Assembly: GCA_902806015.1 (NCBI GenBank)
Contig: CADCUZ010000164.1
Span: 1-20,257 of the forward strand
From: an uncultured Rubrobacteraceae bacterium
Lineage (GTDB): Bacteria > Actinomycetota > Rubrobacteria > Rubrobacterales > Rubrobacteraceae
Direction: 5' to 3'
Length of the DNA stretch: 20,257 nt
Shown here: piece after piece, positions 2,606-20,125 of the stretch
Position numbering within the stretch: the stretch's first letter is position 1
Layout: every line of letters begins with the position of its first letter
Position numbers and translations under genes: made by a program
Notes under the pieces: generated by a model
Seen by the model: the letters and a program-made list of their open reading frames with translations, nothing else
What the model was told of the DNA's origin: nothing
Databases searched by the model: none

Positions 2606-2956
2606 TTTCATGGCGGCCAGGCACTCTTCCCATGGGCGCCCCGGGCTCTCAAGACGGTTGCCGTAGAGCGAGAGCTTGTGGACGAACTCGTGCAGGGCGG
2701 ACTCGTCGTCGGAGATGCAACCCGGGCGGGCCACGATGAGGGTTTCCCAGTCCTCCTTTTCCTTTATGTTGCTGATCGCCTCTTTGAGGGCGGGCTTGTG
2801 GTAGAGGAGGGTGCCGGGGGCGTCGAGGTCCTCGTAGCGGGCCACGATCCTGTGGCCGTTTTCGGCTGCGAACGCCTCGCAGAGGGCCGCCTGTTCCCAC
2901 TGGGAGGGCAGCTCAGACCCGGGGTTTGTCCTTATGTAGAGGGCGGCTCGGGACAC
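2576..2956 (-). CDS. Serine-recombinase (resolvase) N-terminal-domain-like protein, probably catalytically inactive
   Basis: A 126-residue protein resembling only the catalytic domain of serine recombinases. The opening RAALYIRTNP corresponds to the family pattern for Y-x-R-V-S-T. The position of the catalytic serine is Asn11, followed by Pro12. Other family landmarks are recognisable: a Gln in PSQWEQ, the strand HRIVARYEDLD, and KPALKEAI in place of RPAL. The DRLxR helix motif is replaced by RPGCIS. No DNA-binding helix-turn-helix or large-recombinase domain follows. I chose GTG at 2954-2956 because the homology starts there and an extended -10 box lies 9 bases upstream; a longer frame reaches GTG at about 3004. 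The fold assignment is from pattern memory. A non-catalytic or remnant protein is the most likely reading. Confidence 0.6.
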   Translation of the reverse strand: MSRAALYIRTNPGSELPSQWEQAALCEAFAAENGHRIVARYEDLDAPGTLLYHKPALKEAISNIKEKEDWETLIVARPGCISDDESALHEFVHKLSLYGNRLESPGRPWEECLAAMKAYRRAMARR

Positions 2957-2965
2957 GGAAAACGG

Positions 2966-2974
2966 ATGATAGCA
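2966..2974 (-). promoter_or_regulatory. Extended -10 promoter of the recombinase-like gene
   Basis: The minus strand reads TGCTATCAT, a TGn extended -10, ending 9 bases before the GTG at 2956. The predicted transcript would have a leader of only a few bases. It is back to back with a plus-strand extended -10 at 2986-2994. Confidence 0.5.
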
Positions 2975-2985
2975 CGGCCTGCGTC

Positions 2986-2994
2986 TGGTATGAT
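2986..2994 (+). promoter_or_regulatory. Extended -10 promoter of tRNA-Pro
   Basis: TGGTATGAT is a near-perfect extended -10, with a predicted start near 3001, about 16 bases before the mature tRNA. No -35 match is obvious. Confidence 0.55.
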
Positions 2995-3016
2995 TCGGCC
3001 CCACGAAGAGGCGCGT

Positions 3017-3090
3017 CGGGACGTGGCGCAGTCTGGTAGCGCACTCGGCTGGGGGCCGAGTGGTCGCCGGTTCGAATCCGGCCGTCCCGA
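3017..3090 (+). tRNA. tRNA-Pro(GGG)
   Basis: A complete 74-base cloverleaf. The acceptor stem CGGGACG (3017-3023) pairs with CGTCCCG (3083-3089), and the discriminator is A at 3090. The D stem is GCGC/GCGC. The anticodon stem is CTCGG/CCGAG with loop CTGGGGG, giving anticodon GGG for proline CCC/CCU codons. The T arm contains GGTTCGAATCC. The 3' CCA is not encoded. Confidence 0.95.
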
Positions 3091-3128
3091 CTCTTCGAAA
3101 CCGCTTACGTGGAAAGGCCGCGAGAGTT

Positions 3129-3248
3129 TTGGATACGATCTACCTGCTGCTAGGCATCGTTGGGTTCATGGTCGTCATCGCGGCCTTCTTTTTCGGCGGC
3201 TTCTTGCTGCTGGACTTTATCTGGGGCCGCCGCGGGGGAGACGCTTAG
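3129..3248 (+). CDS. Small single-span membrane peptide (39 aa)
   Basis: TTG-initiated frame of 39 residues with one long hydrophobic segment at about residues 4-29 (LLLGIVGFMVVIAAFFFGG) and the tail WGRRGGDA, compatible with an N-out/C-in single span by the positive-inside rule. It begins 38 bases after tRNA-Pro. No promoter is obvious between them, so it could be read from the tRNA promoter. A GGAAAGG sequence 10 bases upstream is a possible ribosome-binding site. I do not recognise a family. An upstream in-frame ATG overlaps the tRNA and is rejected as a start. Confidence 0.5.
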   Translation: MDTIYLLLGIVGFMVVIAAFFFGGFLLLDFIWGRRGGDA

Positions 3249-3280
3249 CGCGGGGCCGCCTCTCCGCCCTCTCCTCGCGC

Positions 3281-4042
3281 TTGATCCCTTCGCTCAAAGA
3301 CCTGCGCCTCGTGGAACCGGGGTGCCTGATCCTGCACGAGGCCCACGACGAGGATCGCCTCGCCCGCCTGAAGGGGCGCGTCGAAGCCGAAGGCGAGCAA
3401 CGCAACCCCGTTATAGCCTCCCCTTACGAGGACCGCTTCCTGGTCCTCGACGGCGCCCACCGGGTCCGCGCCATGGCCGAGCTTGGCGCCCGCTTCGTTC
3501 TCGTGCAGGTCGTCGAGCCGCCGGAGCGGGCCGAGGGTTGGGGGCACCTCGTCGGGGGCATGGAGTCCTTCGGGACCCAAGGGACGAACGGGCTGCTCGT
3601 CTCGGAAGGGCCGGACGGCGAGGTCGTCGCCGAGGTCGAAACGCCCGCCGGGGGGACGGCGTTCGTGCTTTCCCGCGAGGGCGGGCCCCTCGCCCGGTCC
3701 CGCGTCATGTGGGACCTGCAGGCGCTCTACCAGAAGGGGGCGGCGGTGCGCCGCATCGAGCCAGACGGGGCGGTGCGTCTCTCCGGGGGGGAGGCCCTGA
3801 TCCGGTACGGCGCCTTCGCCCCGGAGGAGCTCGTCGAGATCGTCGCCTCGGGCGCGGTTCTTCCCGCCGGCGTCACCCGGTTCCGCGTGCGGGAGCGCAT
3901 CCTCGGCGTGCGCTACCCGCTGGACAGGATGATGGGCGGCGAACCCCGCGCCCGCAACGTCGAGCTGAGAAGGTTCGTCGTGGCGCGCTGGGCCGAAAAC
4001 CGCGTCCGCTACTACCGGGAGCCCGTCGTCCTCTTCGAGTAG
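3281..4042 (+). CDS. ParB/sulfiredoxin-fold protein, SbnI/SerK-like candidate free-serine kinase
   Basis: A 253-residue protein. From memory it aligns over its whole length with Staphylococcus SbnI, which phosphorylates free L-serine to O-phosphoserine and binds heme. Seen here: LHEAHDEDRL with Glu20, at the same position as the catalytic Glu20 of SbnI; LDGAHR at residues 56-61, matching the DGxHR nucleotide-binding motif of SbnI, SerK and the ParB/Srx fold; and the C-terminal block LPAGVTRF near residue 197 followed by the hydrophobic pattern RILGVRYPL, close to the SbnI counterpart. The TTG at 3281 gives N-terminal spacing identical to SbnI. No siderophore genes are nearby, so the role may be general phosphoserine supply for cysteine or diaminopropionate-type metabolism, or regulation. 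Family membership is fairly secure; activity is inference. Confidence 0.7.
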   Translation: MIPSLKDLRLVEPGCLILHEAHDEDRLARLKGRVEAEGEQRNPVIASPYEDRFLVLDGAHRVRAMAELGARFVLVQVVEPPERAEGWGHLVGGMESFGTQGTNGLLVSEGPDGEVVAEVETPAGGTAFVLSREGGPLARSRVMWDLQALYQKGAAVRRIEPDGAVRLSGGEALIRYGAFAPEELVEIVASGAVLPAGVTRFRVRERILGVRYPLDRMMGGEPRARNVELRRFVVARWAENRVRYYREPVVLFE

Positions 4043-5777: not shown

Positions 5778-7064
5778 TTGACGGCCACGGTCGTGCTCGG
5801 GTTGGCCTGGGGGGACGAGGGGAAGGGCCGCGTCTGCGACTCGCTCGCCTCAGATGCCCACTACGTCTCGCGTTACTCTGGCGGCAACAACGCGGGGCAC
5901 ACCGTCCGCGTCGGCGACGAGGAGTTCAAGCTGCACCTCGTCCCGTCCGGGATCGTGCGGGAGGACGTGGTCTGCACCATCGGTAACGGGGTCGTGGTCA
6001 ACCCGGAGGTGCTCGTCGAGGAGGTCGAGGCGCTGGAGGCGCGCGGCATCAGCGTCCGCGGCCGGCTCAAGATAGACGGCCGGGCGCACCTCATCATGCC
6101 GTACCACATAGCGCTCGACTCGCACCGCGAGATCGCGCTCGGCGACGCCCGCATCGGCACCACGAACCGCGGCATAGGCCCCGCCTACGAGGACAAGGTC
6201 GCCCGCTACGGCATCCGCATCCAGGACATCTCCGACGAGGGCATTCTCAAGACGAAGCTGAAGGCGGCCCTGCGCGAGAAGAACTCGATCTTCGAGAACG
6301 TTTACGGGGAGAAGCCCTACGACGTCTCGGAGCTCGCCTCCTGGCTGCGCGGCCTCGAGGACTTTATCCGGCCGATGGTGGCCGACACGGGCGCCGTGCT
6401 GCGCGAGGGCCTAGGCCGCCGCGAGAAGGTCCTCCTCGAAGGCGGCCAGGCCACCCTCCTGGACAACGACCACGGCACCTACCCCTTCGTCACCTCGTCG
6501 AACCCGACGGTGGGGGGGGCCGTCACGGGCTCGGGCATCCCGGCGCGGCACCTTGAGTACGTGGTGGGGGTGACCAAGGCCTACACGACGCGGGTCGGGG
6601 ACGGGCCTATGCCTACCGAGCTCTTCGACGAGGTCGGGGAGACCCTCCGGGAGGTGGGGCGCGAGTACGGGACCACGACGGGGCGGAGCCGGCGGGTGGG
6701 ATGGCTGGACCTGCCGGCCATCCGGTGGGCGGCGTCCCTGAATGGGATCACGCACTGCGCCCTCACGATGCTCGACGTCCTCTCCTCGGTTGAGGAGATC
6801 AAGATCTGCACCGCCTACGACGTCGACGGCGAGCCCTTCGAAGGCTACCCGATGCACCAGACCGACCTCCACCACGCCCGGCCCGTGTACAAGACGCTGG
6901 CGGGCTGGGGCGAGGACATCACGGGGTGCAGGATGCGGGTGGATTTGCCGGAGGCCGCGCGGGACTTTGTCGGGTTCGTCGAGGCTGAGGTCGGGGCGCC
7001 TCTGTGCATGATCAGCGTGGGCCCGGAGCGCGACCAGGCCATCGTGGAGAGGATCGGGACCTAG
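5778..7064 (+). CDS. purA: Adenylosuccinate synthetase
   Basis: Catalyses GTP-dependent condensation of IMP and aspartate to adenylosuccinate, the first of two steps from IMP to AMP, in the cytoplasm. The 428 residues match the usual length. WGDEGKGR at 11-18 contains the catalytic Asp13, and GGNNAGHT at 35-42 contains catalytic His41. Further signatures are TTNRGIGPAYEDK, the IMP-binding TTTGRSRRVGW loop, and the C-terminal SVGPERDQAI. The usual K in GDEGKGK is Arg18. The TTG start is supported by GGAGG 7 bases upstream. It is the first gene of the pur operon, with purD 4 bases after its stop. Having the AMP-branch gene lead the operon couples IMP formation to AMP synthesis. Confidence 0.97.
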   Translation: MTATVVLGLAWGDEGKGRVCDSLASDAHYVSRYSGGNNAGHTVRVGDEEFKLHLVPSGIVREDVVCTIGNGVVVNPEVLVEEVEALEARGISVRGRLKIDGRAHLIMPYHIALDSHREIALGDARIGTTNRGIGPAYEDKVARYGIRIQDISDEGILKTKLKAALREKNSIFENVYGEKPYDVSELASWLRGLEDFIRPMVADTGAVLREGLGRREKVLLEGGQATLLDNDHGTYPFVTSSNPTVGGAVTGSGIPARHLEYVVGVTKAYTTRVGDGPMPTELFDEVGETLREVGREYGTTTGRSRRVGWLDLPAIRWAASLNGITHCALTMLDVLSSVEEIKICTAYDVDGEPFEGYPMHQTDLHHARPVYKTLAGWGEDITGCRMRVDLPEAARDFVGFVEAEVGAPLCMISVGPERDQAIVERIGT

Positions 7065-7068
7065 CGCC

Positions 7069-8343
7069 GTGCGGGTGTTGGTCGTCGGCGGCGGGGGGCG
7101 GGAGCACGCCCTCGTAGAGGCCCTGGCCGCGAGCTCCCTGGCCCCCGAGATGTTCGCCGCCCCCGGCAACCCCGGCATCGCCCGCATAGCCCAGGTGGCG
7201 GACATCCCCGTGGACGACCTCGTTGCCCTGCGAGACTTCGCCAAAGAGAACGAGATAGACCTGACGGTCGTGGGGCCGGAATCGGCCCTGATCGGGGGTA
7301 TCACCGAGTGCTTCTGGGAGGAGGGGCTGAAAATTTTCGGCCCCTCCCGCGCCGCCTCCCGCATAGAGGGCTCCAAGGTCTTCGCCAAGGAGCTTATGCG
7401 CCAGGCAGGCGTCCCCTCCGCCGACTTTGAGGCGTTCGACCGCGAGGCGGCGGCCCTCGCCTACCTCGCCACCCGCCGCGACTACCCGGTCGTCGTGAAG
7501 GCCGACGGCGTCGCCGCCGGCAAAGGCGTGACGATCGCGCACAACCGCGACGAGGCCGAGGAGGCCGTGAGGGCGTCGTTTGCCGGCAAGTTCGGCGCGG
7601 CGGGGGAGAGGATCGTGATAGAAGAGTGCCTGGAGGGGCGGGAGGCCTCCGTCTTCGTGGTCACGGACGGCCACGACATCCTGCCTTTTCTGCCGGCCCA
7701 GGACTACAAGCGGGCCTTCGACGAGGACGAGGGGCCCAACACCGGGGGGATGGGGGCCTACTCGCCGATCATGTGGATGGAGCCCGCCACCTACGCCGCC
7801 ATCCTCGAGGACATCATCCGCCCGACCATCCACCACCTCTCCCTCGTGGGCGCCCCGTACACGGGCCTGCTCTACGCCGGCGTCATGGTCACCGAAACCG
7901 GGCCGAAGGCGCTTGAGTTCAACTGCCGCTTCGGCGACCCGGAGACCCAGGTGATACTCCCCCGGCTAGGCTCCGACCTTCTGGAGCTCATGATCGCGGC
8001 CGGAGAAGAGGACCTCGCCGGCCGGGAGGTCGTCTGGTCCGCGGACAAGACCGTCTGCGTCGTGCTCGCCTCGGAGGGCTACCCGGACTCGTCGCACTCG
8101 GGGGACGAGATCTTCGGCCTTGAGAACATCCCGGCCGGCGTCTACGTCTACCACGCCGCGACCGAAGGGATGGACGGCAGGTTCCGAACGGCGGGGGGAC
8201 GGGTCCTGAACATCGTGGGGACCGGACGGTCGATTATCGAGGCGCGGGCGCGGGCTTATGCCGCGGTCGAGCAGATCCACTTCGAGGGCATGCACTACCG
8301 AACCGACATAGCCCTGGAAGCGATCGACTGGGAAAACCTTTGA
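7069..8343 (+). CDS. purD: Phosphoribosylamine-glycine ligase (GAR synthetase)
   Basis: ATP-grasp enzyme joining phosphoribosylamine and glycine to give GAR, the second step of de novo purine synthesis. At 424 residues it is normal length. The N-domain motif GGGGREHAL lies at about 7-15. VVGPESALIGGI follows, then the ATP-grasp core with PVVVKADGVAAGKGV and the family signature region LEFNCRFGDPETQV near residue 283. The GTG at 7069 begins directly at the conserved VLVVGGGGREHAL strand. The stop TGA overlaps the TTG start of the following purE-like frame by 4 bases (TTGA), so coupled translation is likely. Confidence 0.97.
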   Translation: MRVLVVGGGGREHALVEALAASSLAPEMFAAPGNPGIARIAQVADIPVDDLVALRDFAKENEIDLTVVGPESALIGGITECFWEEGLKIFGPSRAASRIEGSKVFAKELMRQAGVPSADFEAFDREAAALAYLATRRDYPVVVKADGVAAGKGVTIAHNRDEAEEAVRASFAGKFGAAGERIVIEECLEGREASVFVVTDGHDILPFLPAQDYKRAFDEDEGPNTGGMGAYSPIMWMEPATYAAILEDIIRPTIHHLSLVGAPYTGLLYAGVMVTETGPKALEFNCRFGDPETQVILPRLGSDLLELMIAAGEEDLAGREVVWSADKTVCVVLASEGYPDSSHSGDEIFGLENIPAGVYVYHAATEGMDGRFRTAGGRVLNIVGTGRSIIEARARAYAAVEQIHFEGMHYRTDIALEAIDWENL

Positions 8344-8894
8344 GTCCCCAAGTAGGCATCCGCGTCGGCGACGACGACCTCCCCGCCCTCGAACGATGCA
8401 CCGCGCGCCTGAAGGGCTACGGCATCGAGTACGAGGTCGAGGTCCGGGACGTACACGCCAACCCCGAGTCCGCCTCCGGGTACGCCGGCACCGGCCGCGA
8501 ACGCGGCCTCAAGGTCATCATCTGCGCCGCCGGCATGTCCGCCCACCTGGCAGGCGCCGTCGCGGCGAGGACCACCCTGCCGGTCGTAGGCATCCCCGTT
8601 GGGACGGGCACGCTCGGCGGCTTCGACGCCCTGCTCGCGACGCGACGACTGCGAACAACTTCTACGCTCGAGCACCTGCGACACCGTATCCTTCTGCGCG
8701 TAGTCTTGGCGCCCACGACGCTGCTGGGGGCGGCGCACCTCTGGGCGCGCCTTTCGTCTGGTGTCACCGTCGGAGCGCGGATTTTCGCGGCGCTCGGCTT
8801 CTTCGTTGCGGGCTACGGAGTGCTGATCGATGCGCCGATCCTACCGAGCCAAAGACGAGGTGCCCTCGTTGCGAGCGCAGGGGCGTCGGTGTGA
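8340..8894 (+). CDS. PurE-like hybrid: divergent N5-CAIR mutase N-terminal two-thirds fused to an unrelated hydrophobic tail
   Basis: Residues 1-101 clearly belong to the PurE family (AIR to CAIR step): VGIRVGDDDLPALE, KVIICAAGMSAHLAG, ARTTLPVVGIPV and LGGFDALLA. Key positions are altered. The phosphate-binding GSxSD loop is GDDD with one residue missing, and SAHRTP is DVHANP, keeping the catalytic His but losing the Arg. After residue 101 the conserved QMPxGVPVATV and NAALLA segments are absent. Instead there are about 83 residues with two possible membrane helices (about 115-137 and 147-169). About 30% of tail codons end in A/T, against about 10% before. No frame or strand restores the missing PurE end. 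The frame starts by TTGA overlap with purD and ends by GTGA overlap with purB, so it is probably still translated. Activity is doubtful. Confidence 0.65.
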   Translation: MSPQVGIRVGDDDLPALERCTARLKGYGIEYEVEVRDVHANPESASGYAGTGRERGLKVIICAAGMSAHLAGAVAARTTLPVVGIPVGTGTLGGFDALLATRRLRTTSTLEHLRHRILLRVVLAPTTLLGAAHLWARLSSGVTVGARIFAALGFFVAGYGVLIDAPILPSQRRGALVASAGASV

Positions 8895-10204
8895 TCGAGC
8901 GCTACACCCTCCCGGAGATAGGCAACGTCTGGACCGAAGGGGCGAAGTACCGCGCCTGGCTGAAAGTCGAGCTTGCGGTTTGCCGCGCACGGGCCGAGCT
9001 GGGCGAGATCCCAACCGAAGAGGTCGAGGAGCTGGAAGAGAAGGCGGACTTCTCCTTGGAGCGCATCCACGAGATCGAGGGAGAGACCAACCACGACGTC
9101 ATAGCCTTCGTAACGAACGTCGCGGAGAACGCCGGGGATGTCGCCCGCCACTTCCACTTCGGCCTGACGAGCTCGGACGTGCTGGACACGGCGGGGGCGT
9201 TGCAGCTTCGGGACGCGCTGGATCTCATCAGGGGCGAAGCGAAGGCTCTGACGCTGCTGCTGGCCGAGATGGCGCTGGAGCACCGGCGCACGGTAATGGT
9301 CGGGCGGACGCACGGTGTCCACGCGGAGCCGATGGTGCTGGGGCACAAGCTGGCGGTATGGACGTTCGAGATGGAGCGGAACCTGGGGCGGCTGGCGCGG
9401 GCTGAGGAGGTCGCCGCGGTCGGCAAGATCTCCGGTGCCGTCGGCGTCTACGGGAACGTGGACCCGAAGGTGGAGGCCCTGACGTGCGAGGATCTCGGCA
9501 TCTCGTCTTCGCCGGCTTCGACGCAGGTGGTGCAGCGGGACCGGCACGCCGAAGTATTGTCGGCGCTCGCCATCCTCGGCTCGACGATGGAGAAGGTTGC
9601 CTTGGAGGTAAGGGGGGCGCAGCGGACGGAGATCCGGGAGCTCTCGGAGCCTTTCGGGCGCGGCCAGAAGGGCTCCTCGGCGATGCCCCACAAGAAGAAC
9701 CCGATCCTGTGCGAGCGCCTGTGCGGCATGGCGCGCCTGATGCGCGGCTACGCGGCGGTGGGCTTCGAGAACAACGCCCTCTGGCAGGAGCGCGACATAA
9801 GCCACTCCTCCGCCGAGCGCGTCGTCTTGCCCGATGCAACCACCCTCGCCTTCTATATGCTCCGCACGACGCAGCGCGTCCTGCGCGGCCTCCAGGTCCA
9901 CAAAGACAGGATGCGGGAGAACCTCAACGTGGGCGGCGGCATCGTCTTCTCCGGCCGCGTCCTGCTCGCGCTCGTCGGGGCCGGCATGACCCGCGACGAC
10001 GCCTACGCCGTCGTGCAGGGCGCCGCGATGCAGGCCTGGGAGGGCGAAGGCGGCTTCCGGGAGCTCCTTGAGGCGAGGGAAGAGGTGCGCGAGCACCTGG
10101 ACGGCGACCTGGACGGGCTCTTCGACCCGGCGCACGCGCTCCGCAACGTGGGCGTCGTCTTCGAGAGGGTGCAGAAGCTGAAAGAAAGGCTCGAGGATGG
10201 CTAA
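8891..10204 (+). CDS. purB: Adenylosuccinate lyase
   Basis: Acts twice in purine synthesis, cleaving SAICAR to AICAR and adenylosuccinate to AMP, each releasing fumarate. The 437 residues belong to the fumarase/aspartase superfamily. The start is the typical IERYTLPEIGNVWTEGAKY. GLTSSDVLDT (about 92-101) and GRTHGVHAEP (about 138-147) carry catalytic and substrate-binding residues. The superfamily signature GSSAMPHKKNP at 261-271 contains the catalytic serine loop. The GTG start at 8891 has AGGGG 7 bases upstream and overlaps the previous stop as GTGA. The C-terminus overlaps purC by 8 bases. Confidence 0.97.
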   Translation: MIERYTLPEIGNVWTEGAKYRAWLKVELAVCRARAELGEIPTEEVEELEEKADFSLERIHEIEGETNHDVIAFVTNVAENAGDVARHFHFGLTSSDVLDTAGALQLRDALDLIRGEAKALTLLLAEMALEHRRTVMVGRTHGVHAEPMVLGHKLAVWTFEMERNLGRLARAEEVAAVGKISGAVGVYGNVDPKVEALTCEDLGISSSPASTQVVQRDRHAEVLSALAILGSTMEKVALEVRGAQRTEIRELSEPFGRGQKGSSAMPHKKNPILCERLCGMARLMRGYAAVGFENNALWQERDISHSSAERVVLPDATTLAFYMLRTTQRVLRGLQVHKDRMRENLNVGGGIVFSGRVLLALVGAGMTRDDAYAVVQGAAMQAWEGEGGFRELLEAREEVREHLDGDLDGLFDPAHALRNVGVVFERVQKLKERLEDG

Positions 10205-10931
10205 GACCCTTCTCTACGAGGGCAAGGCGAAGAAGGTTTTCGCCACGGACGACGGGGCCGTCCTGCTGCATCGCTACAAGGACGACGCCACCGCCTACAA
10301 CGCGCAGAAACGCGGCTCGTGGAAGGGCAAGGGCAAGACCAACGCCACCATGAGCGCCGCCATGTTTACCTACCTCGAAGCGAACGGCGTTGCGAGCCAC
10401 TTCCTGGAGCAGACCGACGAGACGACCATAAAGACGAAGAAGCTCACGATGTTGCCCGTCGAGGTCGTCGTCCGTAACCTCGCGGCGGGCTCCCTCTCGC
10501 GTCTGCTCGGCTTCGAGGAGGGGTTCAGGCTGAAGGCCCCTATAGTGGAGCTCTGCTACAAGAACGACGCCTTAGGCGACCCGCTGCTCAACTGGCACCA
10601 CTTCCGCGAGCTCGGCGTCTCCGACGAGGAACTGGGGTTTTGCGAGGGGCTCGGCCTCAAGGTGAACGGCATCCTGGCCCCCTTTTTCGACGAGAGGGGC
10701 GTTACCCTGGTGGACTTCAAGATAGAGGTCGGGCGCGACGGGGGCGGACGGCTCATGCTCGCCGACGAGATATCCCCGGACACCTGCCGCTTCTGGGACA
10801 AGGAGACCGGCGAGAGGTTGGACAAGGACCGCTTCCGCCGCGACCTCGGCGGGATGGAGGAGGCCTACGCGGAGATGTTGCGCCGGGTTACGGCGGGGGC
10901 ATCAGGTAAAGGCGAGGAGGGCGGCGCTTGA
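10197..10931 (+). CDS. purC: SAICAR synthetase (phosphoribosylaminoimidazole-succinocarboxamide synthase)
   Basis: Condenses CAIR with aspartate using ATP to form SAICAR. At 244 residues it is normal length. LLYEGKAKKVFATDD starts the N-terminal domain. Conserved blocks include LPVEVVVRNLAAGSL, APIVELCYKNDALGDP, and VDFKIEVGRD followed by LADEISPDTCRFWD. The ATG at 10197 overlaps the end of purB by 8 bases (ATGGCTAA). The substrate CAIR must come from a PurE activity, which is doubtful in this operon. Confidence 0.97.
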   Translation: MAKTLLYEGKAKKVFATDDGAVLLHRYKDDATAYNAQKRGSWKGKGKTNATMSAAMFTYLEANGVASHFLEQTDETTIKTKKLTMLPVEVVVRNLAAGSLSRLLGFEEGFRLKAPIVELCYKNDALGDPLLNWHHFRELGVSDEELGFCEGLGLKVNGILAPFFDERGVTLVDFKIEVGRDGGGRLMLADEISPDTCRFWDKETGERLDKDRFRRDLGGMEEAYAEMLRRVTAGASGKGEEGGA

Positions 10932-11053
10932 CGGTAAGGACCGAGGGTCGCCGGCTGGCGGAGGGACACGAAACACGCCGTCGCCGGGCACCGTCGCGGC
11001 CGACGAACGGCGGGTACGGGTCGAGTACCACAAACCTAAAAGTCGAAGCCTGA
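10928..11053 (+). CDS. Unannotated small basic ORF between purC and purS (41 aa)
   Basis: A 41-residue TTG-started frame fills the only sizeable gap in the operon. Its TTG overlaps the purC stop as TTGA, the same geometry as purD to the purE-like frame. A strong GAGGAGG (10914-10920) lies 7 bases upstream, and its TGA ends 4 bases before the purS start. The predicted peptide is hydrophilic and Arg-rich (MTVRTEGRRLAEGHETRRRR, then a Ser/Thr/Gly tail ending LKVEA). No family is recognised. It may be a real microprotein, or a frame kept open to couple translation from purC to purS. In GC-rich DNA a frame of this length can occur by chance, so the ribosome-binding site and junction geometry are the main evidence. 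Confidence 0.4.
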   Translation: MTVRTEGRRLAEGHETRRRRAPSRPTNGGYGSSTTNLKVEA

Positions 11054-11057
11054 TGCC

Positions 11058-11278
11058 TTGAAGATCCGTGTTCTCGTCCGTCCCAAGGAGGGCATCCTCG
11101 ACCCGCAGGGGGAGGCGGTGCTGGGGGCCTTGCCGGCGCTCGGGTTCGGGGGCGTAAAGACCGTTCACGTGGGACGCCTGATCGAGATGGAGGTCGAGAG
11201 CGCGGACGAGGTGGACGCGATGTGCCGGCGGCTGCTCGCCAACCCCACCGTCGAGGAGTACGAGTGGGAGGTGGTCTC

Positions 11279-11282
<4 letters not shown>
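11058..11282 (+). CDS. purS: FGAM synthase subunit PurS
   Basis: Small 74-residue subunit that joins PurL and PurQ in the formylglycinamidine ribonucleotide synthase complex and helps transfer ammonia. Typical features are the opening [19 protein letters not shown], the central [12 protein letters not shown] and the C-terminal [14 protein letters not shown]. The TTG at 11058 starts right at the conserved first strand. The stop overlaps the purQ start as GTGA. Its presence fits the short PurL found downstream. Confidence 0.93.
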
Positions 11283-11937
<655 letters not shown>

Positions 11938-11941
<4 letters not shown>

Positions 11942-14175
11942 ACGTAAGGGAAGCATACGGCGCCTTGGGCCTCTCCGAATGGGAGTACGGGCGCATCCTG
12001 GACCTTATGGGCCGGGAGCCAAACTACCTGGAGCTCTCGCTCTTTTCCGTGATGTGGAGCGAGCACTGCGGCTACAAGAACTCGCGCCCCCTGCTGCGCC
12101 GCTTCCCGAACGAGGGGCCGCGGGTTTTGCAGGGCCCAGGGGAGAACGCGGGCGTGGTCGAGGTGGGGGACGGGTGGGCGCTCGCGTTCAAGATGGAGAG
12201 CCACAACCATCCCTCGGCCGTCGAGCCCTACGAGGGGGCTGCGACGGGCGTCGGTGGGATCATCCGCGACGTCCTCGCCATGGGCGCCAGGCCAGTCGCG
12301 CTCCTGGATTCCCTGAGGTTCGGCCCGCTGAACGAGGAGCGCAACCGCTACCTTTTCCGCGAGGTCGTGCGCGGCATCGGCGGGTACGGCAACGCCGTCG
12401 GCGTGCCGACCGTCGGCGGTGAGGTCGAGTTCTCGCCGGCCTACTCGGGCAACCCGCTCGTCAACGCGATGTGCGTCGGGCTCATACGGGTGGAGGACCT
12501 TATGCGTTCCAGGGCGACGGGCGAGGGCAACGCCGTCGTCCTGCTCGGCTCGAAGACCGGCCGCGACGGCATACACGGGGCGACCTTCGCCTCCGACGAG
12601 CTGACGGAGGAGTCCGAATCCAAGAGGTCCAACGTGCAGGTTGGCGACCCGTTCGCCGAGAAAATGCTCGTGGAGTGCTGCCTGGGGTTGCTGGCACAGG
12701 ATCTGCTCGTCTCCCTGCAGGACCTCGGGGCGGCGGGCATAACCTCGTCGGCCTCGGAGATGGCCGCCAGCGGCCGCGTCGGCATCGACCTGGAGGTGGA
12801 GAAGGTCCCCAGGCGGGAGGCGGGGATGGAGCCTTGGGAGGTCATGATCTCCGAGTCCCAGGAACGCATGCTCGCCGTCGTCGAACCCGAGAAGGTCGGG
12901 GAGGCGCTGGCCCTCGCCGGGCGCTACGGCATCGGCGGCACGGTCGTCGGTCGCGTCGCCGGCCACGGCGACCTGCGGGTAATCGAGAAGGGGGAAGTCG
13001 TCGGCACCGTCCCCGCCGAGCACCTCGCCGACGCCCCCGCCTACGAGCGAGAGGTCGTCCGGCCGAAATACCTCGACGAGGTCCAGAAGCTCGACGAGGG
13101 TGCGTTGCCCGAGCCCGAGGACTACAGCGAGATCCTGCTCACGATGCTCTCCCACCCGAACGGGCGCTCTCGCCGGTCCGTCTACAACCAGTACGACCAC
13201 CAGGTCGGCACGAACACCGTCGTCTTGCCGGGTGCGGACGCCGCCGTGATGAGGATAAAGGGCACGAAGCGCGGCTTCGCCGTTACCACCGACGGCAGGG
13301 GCCGGCACTGCTTTCTTGACCCGCGGGGCGGCGGGGCCGCGACCGTCGCCGAGGCGTACAGGAACCTCTCGTGCGTCGGGGCGGAGCCCGTGGCCGTCAC
13401 CGACTGCCTCAACTTCGGCAGCCCGGAGAAGCCGGACGGCTACTACCAGCTTGCCGAGTGCATCGAGGGTATGTCCCAAGCGTGCGAGGTCCTCGGGACG
13501 CCTGTGGTGAGCGGCAACGTCAGCCTCTATAACGAGACGGACCGGGGGCCCATCTACCCGACGCCCACGGTCGGTATGGTCGGCATCCTTGAGGACGTTA
13601 GCCGCCACGCGACCCTTGGCTTCAAGCGGGAGGGGGACATCGTGGTGGCTATCGGCAAGGGTGGGCGATCCGGGCTCGCGGGTTCGGATTACCTGGAGGT
13701 CGTCCACGGTGAGGTCGCCGGCGTGCCATCGGAACCCGAGCTGTCCGCCGAGAAGCAGTACTCCGATCTCGTGCGCCGCTTGGTATCGGAGGGCGTAGTG
13801 GACACGGCGCACGACGTCTCGGGCGGCGGAGAGATTGTTGCCCTGGCGGAGATGGTTCTCGCCGGAAACGTCGGTATGGAGTTCGAGGATGCCGAGATCG
13901 GGCCTATGTTGAGCGGTGCCGGGGGCAGGGGAGACGTGGCGCTGTTCGGAGAAGCCGGTGCGCGATTCTTGGTCACCGTCCCGACGGAACGCTGGGACGA
14001 CCTGCAGAGGGCCCTGGCGCAAGTCCCCTACGATAGCATCGCTGTGACCGGTGGCGACCGGTTCCGGGTACCGGGCCTGGTCGATGTGAGCCTGGACGAA
14101 CTCAGGGAGGCCTACGCGCAAGATCTCTTCGGCGTTCCGGGCGAGGCCGTCGGCGGAACGGAGGCCGCCGGATGA
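11938..14175 (+). CDS. purL: FGAM synthase large subunit PurL (small type)
   Basis: Catalyses ATP-dependent conversion of FGAR to FGAM with ammonia from PurQ. About 745 residues, the short form that needs PurS and PurQ. Recognisable blocks are [37 protein letters not shown], the duplicated AIRS-like domains, [18 protein letters not shown], and in the second half [10 protein letters not shown] and DVSGGGEI. The start is unusual. No ATG, GTG or TTG exists in frame before the homology, except a TTG at 11965 that would trim the conserved N-terminus. CTG at 11938-11940, overlapping the purQ stop as CTGA with GGGGG a few bases upstream, fits best. The 3' end overlaps the cupin gene as ATGA. Confidence 0.95.
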
Positions 14176-14534
14176 GCCCGGGCAAGGTGGACCTCGCGGA
14201 GAAGCTCTCGCTTTTCGACGAACGCTGGAGCCCGAAGATCGTCGGCGAGATGAACGGCAAGCACGTGAAGCTGGTGAAGCTTCTCGGCGAGTTCGTCTGC
14301 CGCCACCACGACGCCGCAGACGAGTTGTTCCTCGTCGTGAAGGGCCGGTTCAGGATGGACTTTCGGGACCGAGAAAAGTGGATCGAAGTGGGCGAGTTCG
14401 TCGCGTTGCCGCGCGGGGTGGGGCGCCGGCCGCTCGCGGAAGAGGAGGCCCACGTTATGCTCTTCGAGCCGGCCTCTACGGTAAAGGGGAGCGCCGGCGG
14501 CGGGATGACCATGGCCGAGCTGGACAGGGTCTAG
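14172..14534 (+). CDS. Cupin-domain protein embedded in the pur operon
   Basis: A 120-residue single-domain cupin. The family pattern is clear: [23 protein letters not shown], then [20 protein letters not shown], then [22 protein letters not shown]. In typical members (memory comparison) the first motif is HxHxxxxE and the second is PxGVEHxP. Here the positions read Arg44-His45-His46 with Glu51, and Arg85 replaces the second-motif His. The metal site therefore appears altered or lost. ATG overlaps the purL stop by 4 bases, so it is coupled to purL. Function in purine synthesis is unknown; ligand sensing or a moonlighting role are possible. Confidence 0.8.
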
Positions 14535-14553
14535 GACCCGGAAGGTGGGCGTT

Positions 14554-16005
14554 TTGCACGAGGACTGCCGCGACACGGACGGCAAGCCCAAGGAGGCTTG
14601 CGGGGTCTTCGGGATCTACTCCCGGAAGCTGGCCGGCGAGCTGGCCCAACGCACGTACTTCGGCCTCTACGCCCTGCAGCATCGGGGACAGGAGTCGGCG
14701 GGCATCGCGATCTCCGACGGCGAACGGACGACGGCCTTCAGGGACATGGGCCTCGTCTCACAGGTCTTCGACGGCCCGCGCCTGGCGGCCCTGGAATCGG
14801 GCCACCTCGCCCTCGGCCACGTCCGCTACTCGACGACGGGATCGGCCTCCTGGGAAAACGCCCAGCCCGAGTTCGGGGGCCGCGGCGAGGTGAACGTCGC
14901 GGTCGCCCACAACGGGAACCTGGTGAACGCGAAGTCTTTGCGGGAGGAGCTTGCGGCGGACGGTTTCCGGTTCAACTCCACCTCCGATACGACGTACATC
15001 GCGGCGGCGGCGGTGCGCGAGCTGGAGCGCGGACGCTCCGTCGGGGAGGCCGTGCGGGAGGCGATGCACCGGCTGAGTGGGGCTTACTCGGTCGCCATGA
15101 TCTTCCGCGACAAGCTCGTCGCCTTCCGCGACCCGCACGGGTTCAGGCCGCTCGCCATCGGGCGCGTCGAGGGCGGCTACGCCGTCTCCAGCGAGACGTG
15201 CGGCCTGGACATCATAGGCGCCGAGTTCCTGCGCGAGGTGGAGCCGGGCGAGGTCGTCGTCATAGACGACGGGGGCCTCACGAGCCACCGCTCCGAGAGC
15301 CCGCGCCGCGCGCTGTGCGTGTTCGAGTACGTGTACTTCGCCCGCCCGGACTCCCGCTTCGACGGCAGCGAGGTCGCCGCCAGCCGCAACCGGATGGGGG
15401 AGCTGCTAGCCGAAGAAGCCCCCGCCGAGGCCGACGTGGTCATCCCCGTCCCCGACTCCGGGATGATGGCCGCCATCGGCTACTCCCGGCGCAGCGGCAT
15501 CCCCTACGCGGAAGGGCTCATTAAGAACCGCTACGTCGGCAGGACCTTTATCCAGCCGTCGGACGGTATACGCCAGCTCGGCATCCGGCTCAAGCTGAAC
15601 CCGCTCCCAAGCGCGATCCGGGGTAAGAGGGTGGTCGTGGTGGACGACTCCATCGTGCGCGGCAACACGAGCCGCAAGCTTGTCGAGCTGCTCTTCGAGG
15701 CGGGGGCCACGGAGGTCCACTTCCGGGTCTCCTCGCCGCCGGTGACCGGCCCGTGCTACTACGGCATAGACATGGACAGCCCCGACCAGCTCGTGGGCGC
15801 CAACTTCACGGTCGAGGAGATCCGGGACCAAATCGGGGCGACCACCCTCGCCTACCTCTCCACCGACGCGATGGTCGCCGCCACCGGGCAACCGAAGGAC
15901 CGTCTCTGCCGCGCCTGCTTCGACGGCGAGTACCCGACGCGCGGCACCTCGGAGAAGTTCGCCCTGGAGAACCGGACCCACCACGCGGCCTTCAGGAGCC
16001 GGTGA
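14554..16005 (+). CDS. purF: Amidophosphoribosyltransferase (glutamine PRPP amidotransferase)
   Basis: First committed step of purine synthesis: PRPP plus glutamine to phosphoribosylamine. 483 residues from the TTG at 14554, which has GGAAGG 8 bases upstream; the in-frame GTG at 14545 would lie on that ribosome-binding site. A 15-residue propeptide precedes the catalytic Cys16 in EACGVFGIY, so N-terminal processing is expected. The PRPP-binding loop VVVVDDSIVRGNTSR is near 360-375. Cys255, Cys401, Cys452 and Cys455 match the four 4Fe-4S ligands of the Bacillus subtilis-type enzyme, implying an oxygen-sensitive cluster form. It lies 19 bases after the cupin gene and overlaps the GNAT gene by 4. 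Confidence 0.97.
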   Translation: MHEDCRDTDGKPKEACGVFGIYSRKLAGELAQRTYFGLYALQHRGQESAGIAISDGERTTAFRDMGLVSQVFDGPRLAALESGHLALGHVRYSTTGSASWENAQPEFGGRGEVNVAVAHNGNLVNAKSLREELAADGFRFNSTSDTTYIAAAAVRELERGRSVGEAVREAMHRLSGAYSVAMIFRDKLVAFRDPHGFRPLAIGRVEGGYAVSSETCGLDIIGAEFLREVEPGEVVVIDDGGLTSHRSESPRRALCVFEYVYFARPDSRFDGSEVAASRNRMGELLAEEAPAEADVVIPVPDSGMMAAIGYSRRSGIPYAEGLIKNRYVGRTFIQPSDGIRQLGIRLKLNPLPSAIRGKRVVVVDDSIVRGNTSRKLVELLFEAGATEVHFRVSSPPVTGPCYYGIDMDSPDQLVGANFTVEEIRDQIGATTLAYLSTDAMVAATGQPKDRLCRACFDGEYPTRGTSEKFALENRTHHAAFRSR

Positions 16006-16487
16006 CGCCCCCGACGGCGGAACCCCTGACGATGCGCCGCTACGCGCCGGCCGACAGTGAGGCCGTGCGGCGATTACACGACGATGCCCTAAACGCCGTC
16101 GGCGCGCACCTCGGGGACGGCCCGTGGGACAGCGGCCTCGACGCCATCGAATCGTCCTACCTGAACGACGGCGGCGAGTTTCTCGTCGGGGTCCTCGAAG
16201 GGAAGGTGGTAGCGATGGGGGCGCTGCGGCGCACCCCCGGGGGGCGGGCCCAGGTCACGCGCATGAGGGTCACCCCGGGACTCCGGGGCCGGGGCATCGG
16301 CCAGAGGATCCTCGACAGGCTCCACCTCCGCGCGGCCGGGCTCGGCCACGAGACGCTCTACCTGGACACCACCGTGCAGCAGGCGGCGGCGCGGCGCCTC
16401 TACGAAAAGAACGGCTACCGGGAGATCGGACGGGGCACGGTGGGGCCGTTTTTTTGCCTCTACTACGAGAGGAAGAGCGTTGCCTGA
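16002..16487 (+). CDS. GNAT-family N-acetyltransferase in the pur operon
   Basis: A 161-residue protein of the Gcn5-related acetyltransferase fold. The acetyl-CoA motif A is VTRMRVTPGLRGRGIG (Arg95-Gly96-Arg97-Gly98-Ile99-Gly100). The later LYLDTTVQQAAARRLYEKNGY is the usual motif B region. The GTG at 16002 overlaps the purF stop as GTGA; AGGAG lies close upstream with a short spacing, and ATG at 16032 is an alternative start. The 3' end overlaps purM by 8 bases, so it is locked into the operon between two purine enzymes. The substrate is unknown; it could modify a small amine, an antibiotic or a protein. Confidence 0.85.
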   Translation: MTPPTAEPLTMRRYAPADSEAVRRLHDDALNAVGAHLGDGPWDSGLDAIESSYLNDGGEFLVGVLEGKVVAMGALRRTPGGRAQVTRMRVTPGLRGRGIGQRILDRLHLRAAGLGHETLYLDTTVQQAAARRLYEKNGYREIGRGTVGPFFCLYYERKSVA

Positions 16488-17502
16488 AGACAGGGGCTCG
16501 TACGAGTCTGCGGGGGTCTCCATCGAGCGCGGGGAGCTGGCCGTGGACCTTATGCGCTCCGCCGTCGAGAGGACGCACGGCCCGGGGGTGATCGGGGGCC
16601 CTGGCGGGTTCGCGGGCCTCCACGCCCTGGCCGGTTACAGGGAGCCCGTCCTCGCCTCCACCATCGACGGTATAGGCACCAAGGTCCTCGTCGCCCGCAG
16701 CGTGGGACGCTACGACTTCTTGGGCGCGGACATCGTGAACCACTGCGCGAACGACGTGCTCGCCACGGGCGCCCGGCCGCTCTTGTTCCTGGACTACGTC
16801 GGTACGGGCAGGCTCGACCCGGAGGCCGTCGCCGCGTTGGTCCGCGGGGCTGCCGAGGCCTGCCGGGAGCTCGGCGTTGCCCTCATAGGGGGTGAGACGG
16901 CGGAGATGCCGGGCCTCTACGCCGAGGGCGACTTCGACGTGGTCGGCGCCTGCGTTGGGGCTTGCGAGAGGGACGAGGTCGTCACGGGGCAGGCGGTGCG
17001 TCCGGGGGACGCGGTGCTGGGCCTGGCCTCCAGCGGCCTCCACACCAACGGTTACACCCTCGCCCGCAGGGTGCTCGATGACGCGGGCGTCTCTTTCGGC
17101 GATACGCCGGGAGGGTTGGATGTTCCGGTCGGTGAAGCCTACCTGAAGCCGCACCGGCCGTACTCGCGCGAGATCGGCGCGCTGCGCGGGGCGGTAGGGG
17201 TGAGGGGGATGGCGCACGTTACCGGCGGCGGGCTCGTAGGAAACCTCCCGCGCGCCCTGGGCGGGCGCGGCGCGCGGCTCGACGCAGGCTCGTGGGACGA
17301 ACCCCCAGTGTTCGGCCTCATACGCTCCCTGGGGGACATCCCCGAAGACGAGATGCGCCGCGTCTTTAACCTCGGCGTCGGCTTCTGCGCGGTGGTCGCC
17401 CCGGAGGACGCCGAAAGGGGCCTCGAGGCGCTTCGCGCCACCGGGTGCGAGGCGTGGAGGATCGGGGAGGTTCTCGAGGAAGTGGGCGTCGCTTTTGCCT
17501 GA
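16480..17502 (+). CDS. purM: AIR synthetase (phosphoribosylformylglycinamidine cyclo-ligase)
   Basis: Closes the imidazole ring: FGAM plus ATP to AIR. 340 residues, normal length. SYESAGVSIERGELAVDLM opens the protein. Family blocks are STIDGIGTKVLVA, DIVNHCANDVLATGARPL, LIGGETAEMPGLY, SSGLHTNGYTLAR and HVTGGGLVGNLPR. The TTG at 16480 has GAGGAAGAG a few bases upstream and overlaps the GNAT stop by 8 bases (TTGCCTGA). Its product AIR is the substrate for the PurE step, which appears compromised in this operon. Confidence 0.97.
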   Translation: MPEDRGSYESAGVSIERGELAVDLMRSAVERTHGPGVIGGPGGFAGLHALAGYREPVLASTIDGIGTKVLVARSVGRYDFLGADIVNHCANDVLATGARPLLFLDYVGTGRLDPEAVAALVRGAAEACRELGVALIGGETAEMPGLYAEGDFDVVGACVGACERDEVVTGQAVRPGDAVLGLASSGLHTNGYTLARRVLDDAGVSFGDTPGGLDVPVGEAYLKPHRPYSREIGALRGAVGVRGMAHVTGGGLVGNLPRALGGRGARLDAGSWDEPPVFGLIRSLGDIPEDEMRRVFNLGVGFCAVVAPEDAERGLEALRATGCEAWRIGEVLEEVGVAFA

Positions 17503-18076
17503 GGGGCTGCCGGAGGGCTCGCGGTTCGCGGTGCTGGCCTCGGGCTCCGGGACGAACCTCCAGGCCCTGCTCGACGTCTACCCCGCGAACGTCGCCGTGG
17601 TTGCCGGGGACAAGGGGGACGCGTTCGCCTTCGAGCGGGCGCGGCGGACCGGGGTGCCGGCGGAACACGTTGACCCGGCGGGCCTCGCGGGCAGGGAGGA
17701 CTTCGACCGGGAGCTGGCCGAACGGGTGGCGGCGCACGACGTGGATCTGGTCGTGGGCGCCGGGTACATGCGGGTCCTCTCGCCGGTCTTTTTGGAGAGC
17801 TTCCCGGCCGTGCTGAACGTGCACCCGTCGCTGTTGCCGGAGTTCCGGGGGCTTCGCGCGGTGGAGCGGGCGCTGGAGGCGGGGGTTGGGCAAACGGGGG
17901 TGACGGTCCATTTTATGGTCGAGGAGGTGGACGCCGGGCCGGTGGTGGCGCAGGAGGCGGTGCCGGTGCTGCCCGGCGACACCAAGGTGAGCCTGCTCGA
18001 GAGGTTGCACCCGGTCGAGCACCGGCTGCTCGTGCGGGCCGTGGCGGACTTTTTCTGGGGAAAGGTGACTGTATGA
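17495..18076 (+). CDS. purN: GAR transformylase (10-formyl-THF dependent)
   Basis: Transfers a formyl group from 10-formyltetrahydrofolate to GAR, giving FGAR. 193 residues. FAVLASGSGTNLQAL binds the phosphate. The catalytic triad is Asn108, His110 (in NVHPSLLP) and Asp146 (in VDAGPVV), each offset by 2 from the Escherichia coli enzyme. The TTG start at 17495 overlaps purM by 8 bases through the same TTGCCTGA string seen at the GNAT-purM junction. The stop overlaps purH as ATGA. Confidence 0.96.
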   Translation: MPEGLPEGSRFAVLASGSGTNLQALLDVYPANVAVVAGDKGDAFAFERARRTGVPAEHVDPAGLAGREDFDRELAERVAAHDVDLVVGAGYMRVLSPVFLESFPAVLNVHPSLLPEFRGLRAVERALEAGVGQTGVTVHFMVEEVDAGPVVAQEAVPVLPGDTKVSLLERLHPVEHRLLVRAVADFFWGKVTV

Positions 18077-19605
18077 AGCGTCGGGCACTGGTGTCGGTCT
18101 CGGACAAGCGCGGGGTCGCCGCCTTCGCGCGCAAGCTCTCGGGGATGGGTTTCGAGATCATCTCCACCGGCGGCACCGCGAAGGCGCTGGAGGAGTCGCG
18201 GGTTCCTGTGGTCCAGGTCTCCGAGGTAACCGGCGCCCCCGAGATGCTCGGCGGCCGAGTAAAGACCCTCCACCCGAAGATCCACGGCGGCATCCTCGCC
18301 GACCTCGAAAACCCGGACCACGTCACCCAACTTGTCGAGCACGACATCGGCCCGATAGACCTCGTCTGCATAAACCTCTACCCGTTCGAGGAGACGATCT
18401 CTAAGGACCCGTCGGAGAAGGGGGGCATCGAACAGATAGACGTGGGCGGTCCCGCCATGCTCCGGGCGGCGGCCAAGAACTTCAAGAGCGTCACGGTGGT
18501 TCCCTCTCCCGAGTTCTACAAGGAGGTAGCGGCCGAGCTCGAAAACGAAGGACAGGTCACCGAAGAGACGCGCCGCCGCCTCGCCGTCGCCGCCTTCCGC
18601 CGCACCGCGGAGTACGACGCCGCCATCTCCGGCTGGCTCGGTGGTTCCGAAGAAGACCCCTTCCCGGAGAGAAGGGTTGCCCGATACGAGAAGGTTTCGT
18701 CCCTGCGCTACGGAGAAAACCCGCATCAGGAGGCCGCCTTCTACGCGGAGGCGGGGGGGGAGCACCTGCTCTCCGGCGTGGAGAAGCTGCAGGGACGGGA
18801 GATCTCCTTCAACAACCTCTACGACCTCGACGCGGCCCGAACCTTGCTGGCGGACCTCACCGGCCTCGAAACGCCGGCCGCCGCCGTGATCGTCAAGCAC
18901 GCGAACCCCTGCGGCGCGGCGGTAGGTGGTTCGCTGGCAGAGGCGTACCGCAAGGCGCTCGCCTGCGACCCTCTCTCCGCGTTCGGGGGCATAGTGGCCC
19001 TGAGCGGCGGGGTGGACGGGGAGCTCGCGGCGGAGGTCGCGGAGGTGTTCACGGAGATCATCGTGGCCCCGAACTTCACGTCAAAGGCCAGGGAAACCCT
19101 CTCCGCCAAGCCCAACACGAGGGTCCTAAGGGGCGGTCCCATCCCGCGTCCGGCGCTCTCCGCCAAGCACGTCACGGGCGGCGTCCTTCTGCAGCAGTCC
19201 GACGGGATCGAGGACGCGTCCGGGTACAAAGTCGTCACCGAAAAGCGCCCCTCGCCGGGGCAGATGGACGACCTGCTCTTCGCGTGGCGGGTGGCCCGCA
19301 CCGTGAAAAGCAACGCCATAGTGCTGGCGAAGGCGGGCGCGACGGTGGGGGTCGGGGCCGGCCAGATGAGCCGGGTGGACTCTTCGGAGATGGCTGTCAA
19401 GAAGGCCGGGGATCGCATCCGCGGCGCCGTCGCCGCCAGCGATGCCTTCTTCCCTTTCGCCGACGGGGTCGAGGCGCTGGCGGAGGCCGGCATCGGGGCC
19501 GTCATACAACCGGGCGGATCGGTCCGCGACGAGGAGGTCGTGGCGGCGGCGAACCGCCGCGGCGTGGCGATGATCTTCACCGGCCGCCGGCACTTCAACC
19601 ACTAG
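18073..19605 (+). CDS. purH: Bifunctional AICAR transformylase/IMP cyclohydrolase
   Basis: Carries out the last two steps to IMP. 510 residues. The N-terminal MGS-like cyclohydrolase domain (to about residue 195) shows ALVSVSDKRGVAAFARKL, ISTGGTAKALEE and GRVKTLHPKIHGG. The C-terminal transformylase domain shows LRYGENPHQEAAFY, ISFNNLYDLDAA, VIVKHANPCGAAVG, CDPLSAFGGIVA and the terminal MIFTGRRHFNH. ATG at 18073 overlaps the purN stop by 4, with GGGGAAAGG upstream as ribosome-binding site. It is the last gene of the operon. Confidence 0.97.
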   Translation: MKRRALVSVSDKRGVAAFARKLSGMGFEIISTGGTAKALEESRVPVVQVSEVTGAPEMLGGRVKTLHPKIHGGILADLENPDHVTQLVEHDIGPIDLVCINLYPFEETISKDPSEKGGIEQIDVGGPAMLRAAAKNFKSVTVVPSPEFYKEVAAELENEGQVTEETRRRLAVAAFRRTAEYDAAISGWLGGSEEDPFPERRVARYEKVSSLRYGENPHQEAAFYAEAGGEHLLSGVEKLQGREISFNNLYDLDAARTLLADLTGLETPAAAVIVKHANPCGAAVGGSLAEAYRKALACDPLSAFGGIVALSGGVDGELAAEVAEVFTEIIVAPNFTSKARETLSAKPNTRVLRGGPIPRPALSAKHVTGGVLLQQSDGIEDASGYKVVTEKRPSPGQMDDLLFAWRVARTVKSNAIVLAKAGATVGVGAGQMSRVDSSEMAVKKAGDRIRGAVAASDAFFPFADGVEALAEAGIGAVIQPGGSVRDEEVVAAANRRGVAMIFTGRRHFNH

Positions 19606-19961: not shown

Positions 19962-20033
19962 GGGCCAGTAGCTCAGTGGTAGAGCAGGGGACTTTTAATC
20001 CTCGTGTCGAAGGTTCGATCCCTTCCTGGCTCA
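19962..20033 (+). tRNA. tRNA-Lys(TTT)
   Basis: Complete cloverleaf of 72 bases. Acceptor GGGCCAG (19962-19968) pairs with CTGGCTC (20026-20032) with one G-U, discriminator A20033. D arm GCTCAGTGGTAGAGC. Anticodon stem GGGGA/TCCTC with loop CTTTTAA gives anticodon TTT. T arm contains GGTTCGATCC. CCA is not encoded. Confidence 0.95.
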
Positions 20034-20036
20034 TGA

Positions 20037-20109
20037 GCCCCCATCGTCTAGAGGCCCAGGACACCGCCCTTTCAAGGCGGCGGCACGGGTTCGAATCCCG
20101 TTGGGGGCA
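20037..20109 (+). tRNA. tRNA-Glu(TTC)
   Basis: Starts 3 bases after tRNA-Lys. Acceptor GCCCCCA (20037-20043) pairs with TGGGGGC (20102-20108), discriminator A20109. Anticodon stem CCGCC/GGCGG with loop CTTTCAA gives TTC. T arm GGGTTCGAATCCC. CCA is not encoded; the CC that follows is not followed by A. Confidence 0.95.
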
Positions 20110-20125
20110 CCGGGTTGGCCGGCAA

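Follow-up and report, generated by a model that had tools for sequence, protein, structure and literature searches.

The purine biosynthesis operon of an uncultured Rubrobacteraceae bacterium carries, between purD and purB, a gene that begins as purE and ends as something else, and this raises the question of whether the gene encodes a new form of the enzyme, the remains of an old one or an artefact of assembly. The original prediction, made from the DNA sequence, described a PurE with an altered substrate loop whose last third had been replaced by a hydrophobic tail, and proposed either that a recent recombination had destroyed PurE, with an intact copy elsewhere in the genome, or that PurE also exists in a divergent form bearing a membrane tail. 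The window, which is the whole stretch of 20,257 nucleotides that was analyzed, is a pur operon of the Rubrobacteraceae type. The pur genes other than the hybrid are spread over 5778..19605 of the forward strand, and all score above their own NCBIfam cut-offs (Table 1). No purK was found among the window ORFs scanned against NCBIfam and Pfam.

Table 1. Features of the pur operon in the window (positions counted from the first nucleotide of the window).
Feature	Position	Strand	Evidence or remark
purA	5778-7064	+	NCBIfam/Pfam match
purD, phosphoribosylamine-glycine ligase	7069..8343	+	TIGR00877, 498.7 bits; TTGA 4-nt overlap with the hybrid ORF
Hybrid ORF	8340-8894	+	184 aa, TTG start
PurE-derived part, aa 1-101	8340..8642	+	altered substrate motifs GDDD and DVHANP
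Tail, aa 102-184 and stop	8643..8894	+	counterpart of the C-terminal half (helices 3 and 4) of a membrane protein
purB, adenylosuccinate lyase	8891..10204	+	TIGR00928, 497.3 bits, scored on the longer ORF 8396-10204
purC	10197-10931	+	NCBIfam/Pfam match
purQ	ORF up to 11941	+	NCBIfam/Pfam match
purL	ORF up to 14175	+	NCBIfam/Pfam match
purF	14545-16005	+	NCBIfam/Pfam match
GNAT ORF	up to 16487	+	NCBIfam/Pfam match
purM	16480-17502	+	NCBIfam/Pfam match
purN	17495-18076	+	NCBIfam/Pfam match
purH	18073-19605	+	NCBIfam/Pfam match

The homology of the hybrid to PurE was predicted to stop abruptly, and it does so near T101 (base 8642). Alignments with solved PurEs (34 distinct sequences) stop at hybrid residues 100-103, and the TIGR01162 profile aligns residues 11-102 with its positions 8-99 of 156, with a score of 73.7 bits against a cut-off of 149.6, which leaves the hybrid outside the full-length TIGR01162/PF00731 domain as defined by the curated cut-off. 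About 41 C-terminal PurE codons are absent from the hybrid, and its PurE part is at most 81% identical to ordinary-length Rubrobacter-type PurEs, over aa 1-101 only. The two motif changes and the TTGA and GTGA overlaps with purD and purB, the GTG start of purB sitting within the GTGA stop of the hybrid ORF, are as first described. The reported shift in codon bias was also found, GC3 being 0.90 in bases 8340-8639 and 0.70 in 8640-8891, with A/T-ending codons rising from ~10% to ~30%. An AF2 model built from a 28-row alignment, with no intact PurE as control, gave no confident structure for the hybrid (mean pLDDT 46.6) and was uninformative for the tail, whose ten-residue blocks scored 22-34.

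The difference in GC3 between the two parts is what an assembly chimera at about base 8640 might produce. However, when related sequences were checked for the same junction, an independent protein from JGI (P0002, 185 aa) proved to be the same hybrid, 93% identical to that of the window over its whole length. Of the 12 substitutions between the two, 7 fall in aa 1-101 and 5 in aa 102-184; there is also one indel, and the window GDDD is one codon shorter than the GGDDD of P0002. The tail, moreover, comes from a gene that is expected beside purE and ends in the expected purB overlap (see below). Given this second hybrid, an assembly error is exceedingly improbable, and the hybrid itself is real. 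Both protein searches covered 5.8 billion proteins, with candidates of 0.55-1.75 times the query length. Among the best 120 of 4149 matches in the full-length search, no tail-bearing cluster other than P0002, whose 90% cluster counts 24 members, was found; the other 119, with lengths of 143-163 aa (mostly 143-146), align to 54-58% of the query. In the search with the tail region P0002 was the sole match. The idea of a divergent PurE family with a membrane tail found no support in these searches.

The two possible membrane segments noted in the tail correspond to two hydrophobic 19-residue windows, from residue 117 (1.53) and from residue 150 (1.79), which are lower than those of the intact membrane proteins described next (2.1-2.7). 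Among 25 Rubrobacteria operons with both genes in view, six (G001, G005, G008, G012, G018, G028) have a purE-purB gap of 457-505 bp that accommodates a membrane-protein ORF of 151-168 aa, in the order purD-purE-membrane gene-purB. The spacing is 81-145 bp in three operons (G003, G004, G009), and the remaining 16 have the genes overlapping or at most 6 nt apart. The membrane-protein loci in the purE-purB interval are L154, L157, L158, L087, L113 and L116. A profile of the six membrane proteins scored 28.7 bits with the tail and 20.8 bits with the P0002 tail, the best of 2000 shuffles reaching 12.0. A profile of 40 relatives, which were gathered from a search scoring only the 7999 candidates sharing most words, scored 38.0 and 29.5 bits, respectively, compared to 12.8 for the best shuffle (4937 of 5000 shuffles scored); the reversed tail reached 0.8, and the five other frames of the tail scored below zero or not at all. 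The best pairwise match by blastp among those 40 relatives was P0137 (36% over 81 aa, E 3e-11). Its model (mean pLDDT 71.8) has four predicted helices, at residues 3-41, 52-89, 96-125 and 131-167, and the tail aligns to residues 90-169, the last two predicted helices, reaching almost the last residue of the C-terminal half. The membrane gene overlaps purB by 4 nt in five of the six intact cases, as the tail does, and the GC3 of the tail is 0.70 versus 0.68-0.78 in the six membrane genes. What had been read as a replacement of the last third of PurE thus matches the second half of the membrane gene that stands between purE and purB in relatives. By homology and by its position directly before purB the tail belongs to this Rubrobacteria family, of whose four helices it holds only the part with helices 3 and 4.

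Foreign DNA brought in by recombination or by a mobile element could also have supplied the tail, and would fit its different codon usage, the lack of a homologue outside P0002 in the tail search, and the noise obtained when the tail alone was compared with 39 Rubrobacteria genomes (E at most 1 in 29 of the 39, best E 0.012). Such an origin is very unlikely in view of the profile and pairwise homology to a membrane gene at the same place, and it was dropped after reading the purE-purB interval of relatives; judged from its sequence, the tail is native to the operon. Its appearance as an orphan follows from the divergence of the membrane proteins, which are only 30-35% identical among G001, G005 and G028 despite PurB identities of 91-93%; this low identity would reflect very fast divergence or allele replacement. 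A frame-shifted PurE C-terminus was also considered as the source of the tail and rejected after the other frames were inspected by eye and showed no PurE motif. With six members searched, the membrane protein gave no above-threshold match to a Pfam family, DUF2975 included, and neither three of its members nor the tail matched an NCBIfam family over cut-off. A fold search with the model of mean pLDDT 71.8 found nothing (39 matches, best E 1.9). One member from R. tropicus (P0124) is labelled both 'hypothetical protein' and 'DUF2975 domain-containing' at source, the latter a family without a match here. The hybrid tail resembles this four-helix protein in its C-terminal half, its place and its purB overlap, whereas the first two helices are missing from the hybrid and the rest is joined to PurE. 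The membrane protein of the pur operon gave 40 matches, and their organism names, where given, are Rubrobacter.

The active-site residues were interpreted by reference to human PAICS. In the excerpted text of that study (PMC9376930), Ser274, Ser276 and Lys304 surround the substrate phosphate, Asp277 contacts the ribose and Ser301 the imidazole, and His303 is the general base, its change to Tyr going with no growth in complementation. We mapped these residues to GSxSD and SAH(R/K) by our own motif alignment. In the window, the catalytic His is retained (H39), and the positions of the phosphate-loop Ser, the imidazole-contact Ser and the phosphate-contact Arg/Lys are all altered, so that neither the two Ser of GSxSD nor the Arg/Lys after the catalytic His is found in GDDD and DVHANP. 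The fused protein would no longer convert AIR to CAIR.

The motif changes, correctly recognized in the original prediction, are not special to the hybrid: SAHR is altered in 74 of 120 other relatives, P0002 included, among the best 120 of 4149 matches. Within P0001-P0121, all 46 proteins with SAHR have Ser at the fourth place of GSxS, which is retained in 3 of the 75 with altered SAHR. The altered motif takes some 20 different forms among the relatives listed, and most altered PurEs retain their length and non-catalytic residues. Loss or change of GSxSD is concentrated in the window's clade; G020 and G034 retain the motif, and G007, a genome with SAHR, has Asn in place of the GSxS Ser. The changes are common to the full-length PurEs of the window's clade and, on the evidence of these alignments, are older than the fusion. 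In the operon PurEs of G032, G033 and G034 the catalytic His position is occupied by Tyr, which is the change reported in the excerpted PAICS study to abolish growth with the human enzyme (PMC9376930). These three operon PurEs (L152 in G032, L150 in G033, L151 in G034) are full-length, carry SPYR, and have pN/pS of 0.12-0.21, indicating purifying selection.

The distribution of PurK was surveyed in 39 genomes of the class Rubrobacteria. Operon-type PurE was found in 26 of them, and purB is visible downstream at 25 of these loci. For PurK (TIGR01161), 17 genomes gave a match over cut-off and an eighteenth has the gene split over two contigs; every PurK is accompanied by a class-I-type PurE 50-62 bp away, making 19 pairs in 18 genomes, two of them in G004. 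In the eight genomes with both PurK and an operon PurE, the latter carries DLHA (G001), DVHT (G004, G028), DVHK (G005), SVHR (G010), SVHE (G020) or SPYR (G032, G034). Intact SAHR is therefore seen in 0 of 8 operon PurEs in PurK genomes versus 16 of 18 without detected PurK (Fisher's exact p 2.9e-5 for 8/8 versus 2/18 altered, a test treating as independent genomes that share ancestry). All 16 SAHR operon PurEs lie in genomes without detected PurK, several of which are draft MAGs. A genome without PurK is the setting expected for a PurK-independent, class II PurE. None of 34 non-Rubrobacter genomes with similar PurEs (34 of 69 such loci taken) yielded a PurK.

The two exceptions, with an altered operon PurE and no detected PurK, are G013 (SPHR, 1.3 Mb) and G033 (SPYR, 3.2 Mb), the latter grouping with G032 and G034 as their sister. 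G010 and G013 show a mild change, with S, H and R retained. A neighbour gene chosen in G032 to gauge missing sequence is absent from G034 too, and purC is present in both G033 and G013. Ten PurK genomes (G019, G022-G024, G026, G029-G031, G036, G039) gave no match to operon-type PurE. Nothing purE-like was found at the purD-purB junction in eight of these ten, as read by sequence in G019, G022, G031 and G039 and from match coordinates in the others; G026 and G036 gave no purB. The junction of G019 still holds the membrane gene. Among the three remaining genomes, a contig end truncates the class-I-type PurE of G021, and only weak matches came from G014 and G025.

In a PurB+PurD tree the window is placed as sister to G028, G004, G005 and G001, with which it shares 91.5-92.0% identity in PurB and 92.5-93.9% in PurD. 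Each of these four genomes has a second, motif-intact PurE beside PurK, so that the intact copy expected elsewhere is present in the nearest relatives; since all four have the pair, the window's organism likely has it too. The draft genome G004 contains two PurE-PurK pairs (L082, L092), and the sequence of one class-I PurE in it is the same as in G001 (L081), a possible sign of mixing between the two MAGs. Altered motifs fall in about four groups on the tree.

Selection was compared by simple pairwise pN/pS counts, without a branch model. Over full-length genes, the four clade relatives gave 0.18-0.29 for purE, 0.10-0.17 for purB and 0.05-0.09 for purD; the PurE part of the window gave 0.31-0.40 and its purB 0.13-0.17. 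Full-length purE exceeds purB in all ten pairs from the clade and window and in all three SPYR pairs, compared to 2 of the 16 PurK-less pairs having purB. On matched stretches of ~101 codons, mean purE pN/pS is 0.37 for the window versus its clade, 0.32 within the clade, 0.21 in the SPYR group and 0.10-0.23 in five PurK-less groups. An apparent extra relaxation of the window PurE part was an artefact of unequal lengths and mostly vanished on matched codons, where the window shows no clear excess of relaxation over its own clade. Constraint on purE in the window's clade is relaxed but not gone, pN/pS being well below 1, and for the same reason the altered PurEs are not neutral.

This residual constraint bears on the possibility that, in Rubrobacteria with PurK, selection maintains the altered operon PurEs as pseudoenzymes, acting for instance as partners or regulators of PurE-PurK, and that the hybrid is a membrane-attached version with a role of its own. 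The purifying selection seen both in the clade without the window (0.18-0.29) and in the SPYR group would fit such a function, as would the retained length and non-catalytic residues of most altered PurEs, the altered motifs in about four places on the tree and the persistence of the hybrid in P0002, a protein from a 24-member cluster. Nevertheless, we consider it unlikely: the ten PurK genomes above do without an operon-type purE, selection in the window's clade is weaker on purE than on purB, the altered motif has taken many forms, and the hybrid is missing the final third of the fold and is modeled with low confidence. A version in which operon PurE repeatedly turned into a dead but selected pseudoenzyme tuning purine synthesis, and became tied to the membrane by fusion in the window's lineage, appears improbable.

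We favor instead, with a probability of roughly 85%, an in-frame deletion fusion of two adjacent operon genes in a lineage where the operon PurE was already dispensable beside a PurE-PurK pair. The window gene would most likely be a PurK-independent PurE caught in the course of decay, after a pair encoded elsewhere had rendered it redundant. In the window's clade, a PurE-PurK pair separate from the operon would make CAIR, and the operon PurE would have lost its substrate-binding residues first. One in-frame deletion of ~340-390 bp would then have taken out the final third of purE together with the initial half of the membrane gene, comprising ~126 bp of purE, 2 bp of intergenic DNA and ~72-86 membrane-gene codons as estimated versus G028, G005 and G001; the exact breakpoints cannot be placed because the membrane gene is so divergent. 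The remnants of the two genes would have been joined, and the fusion tolerated because the operon PurE was already dispensable. We infer a single deletion; in no genome was the same tail seen within an intact membrane gene. The suggestion that recombination destroyed PurE is therefore best kept in the form of a deletion fusion, the most likely event, which would have struck a gene with motifs already altered and brought in no foreign tail. The persistence of the hybrid in P0002 counts against a reading as decay.

The open frame of the hybrid may be explained by translational coupling: if purB depends on translation of the preceding ORF, the frame up to the purB start may be held open for that reason. 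Across the survey, purD and purE overlap by 4 nt at 21 of 26 loci. Of the 25 loci with purB in view, 12 show a 4-nt overlap between purB and the ORF preceding it, and 22 have the two no more than 6 nt apart. The purE-purB spacing in G003, G004 and G009 indicates that coupling is not indispensable, and six other operons have 15-25 bp between purD and purB.

With respect to known systems, aa 1-101 of the hybrid are plainly PurE (N5-CAIR mutase, class I, or AIR carboxylase, class II; TIGR01162, PF00731) and stand in a pur operon, whereas the changed substrate positions, the missing last third and the score below the family cut-off set it apart. The double-domain PurE-PurE' gene of Methanobacteria, as presented in the excerpted text of PMC3261824, is likewise a non-standard purE ORF with no adjacent purK, and it complements E. 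coli purE and purK deletions; both of its halves are PurE-like, however, whereas the second half of the hybrid is a remnant of a membrane protein. The same text also speaks of six residues by which class II PurEs are told apart. In searches of the open-access literature, we found no paper on purE decay or on a PurE pseudoenzyme in Rubrobacter or other Actinobacteria among the titles listed.

The hybrid is mildly surprising, its parts being explained, and is most likely a decay intermediate rather than a new enzyme. Of greater interest is a by-product of the comparison: in Rubrobacteria that carry PurK, the active site of PurE has changed repeatedly. The locus would illustrate the stepwise loss of a core metabolic gene within an overlapping operon, from an alternative route through active-site changes in several lineages and fusion to absence: here a deletion would have fused the remains of purE to the next gene with the frame into purB staying open, and elsewhere the gene is gone. 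For annotation, a 143-aa operon 'PurE' of a PurK-carrying Rubrobacter is probably not the working enzyme, and the Rubrobacteria genomes offer a comparison set for PurK-dependent and PurK-independent routes.

Several further features were observed in the window. A 74-aa ORF between purC and purQ (11058-11282) occupies the position expected for purS. A GNAT acetyltransferase gene (15753-16487) lies between purF and purM; the called ORF overlaps purF, and the domain match starts past the overlap. Three tRNA genes follow purH in tandem (19962-20197), and a further tRNA (3017-3090) lies within a called ORF (2678-4042) whose real start is probably farther downstream.
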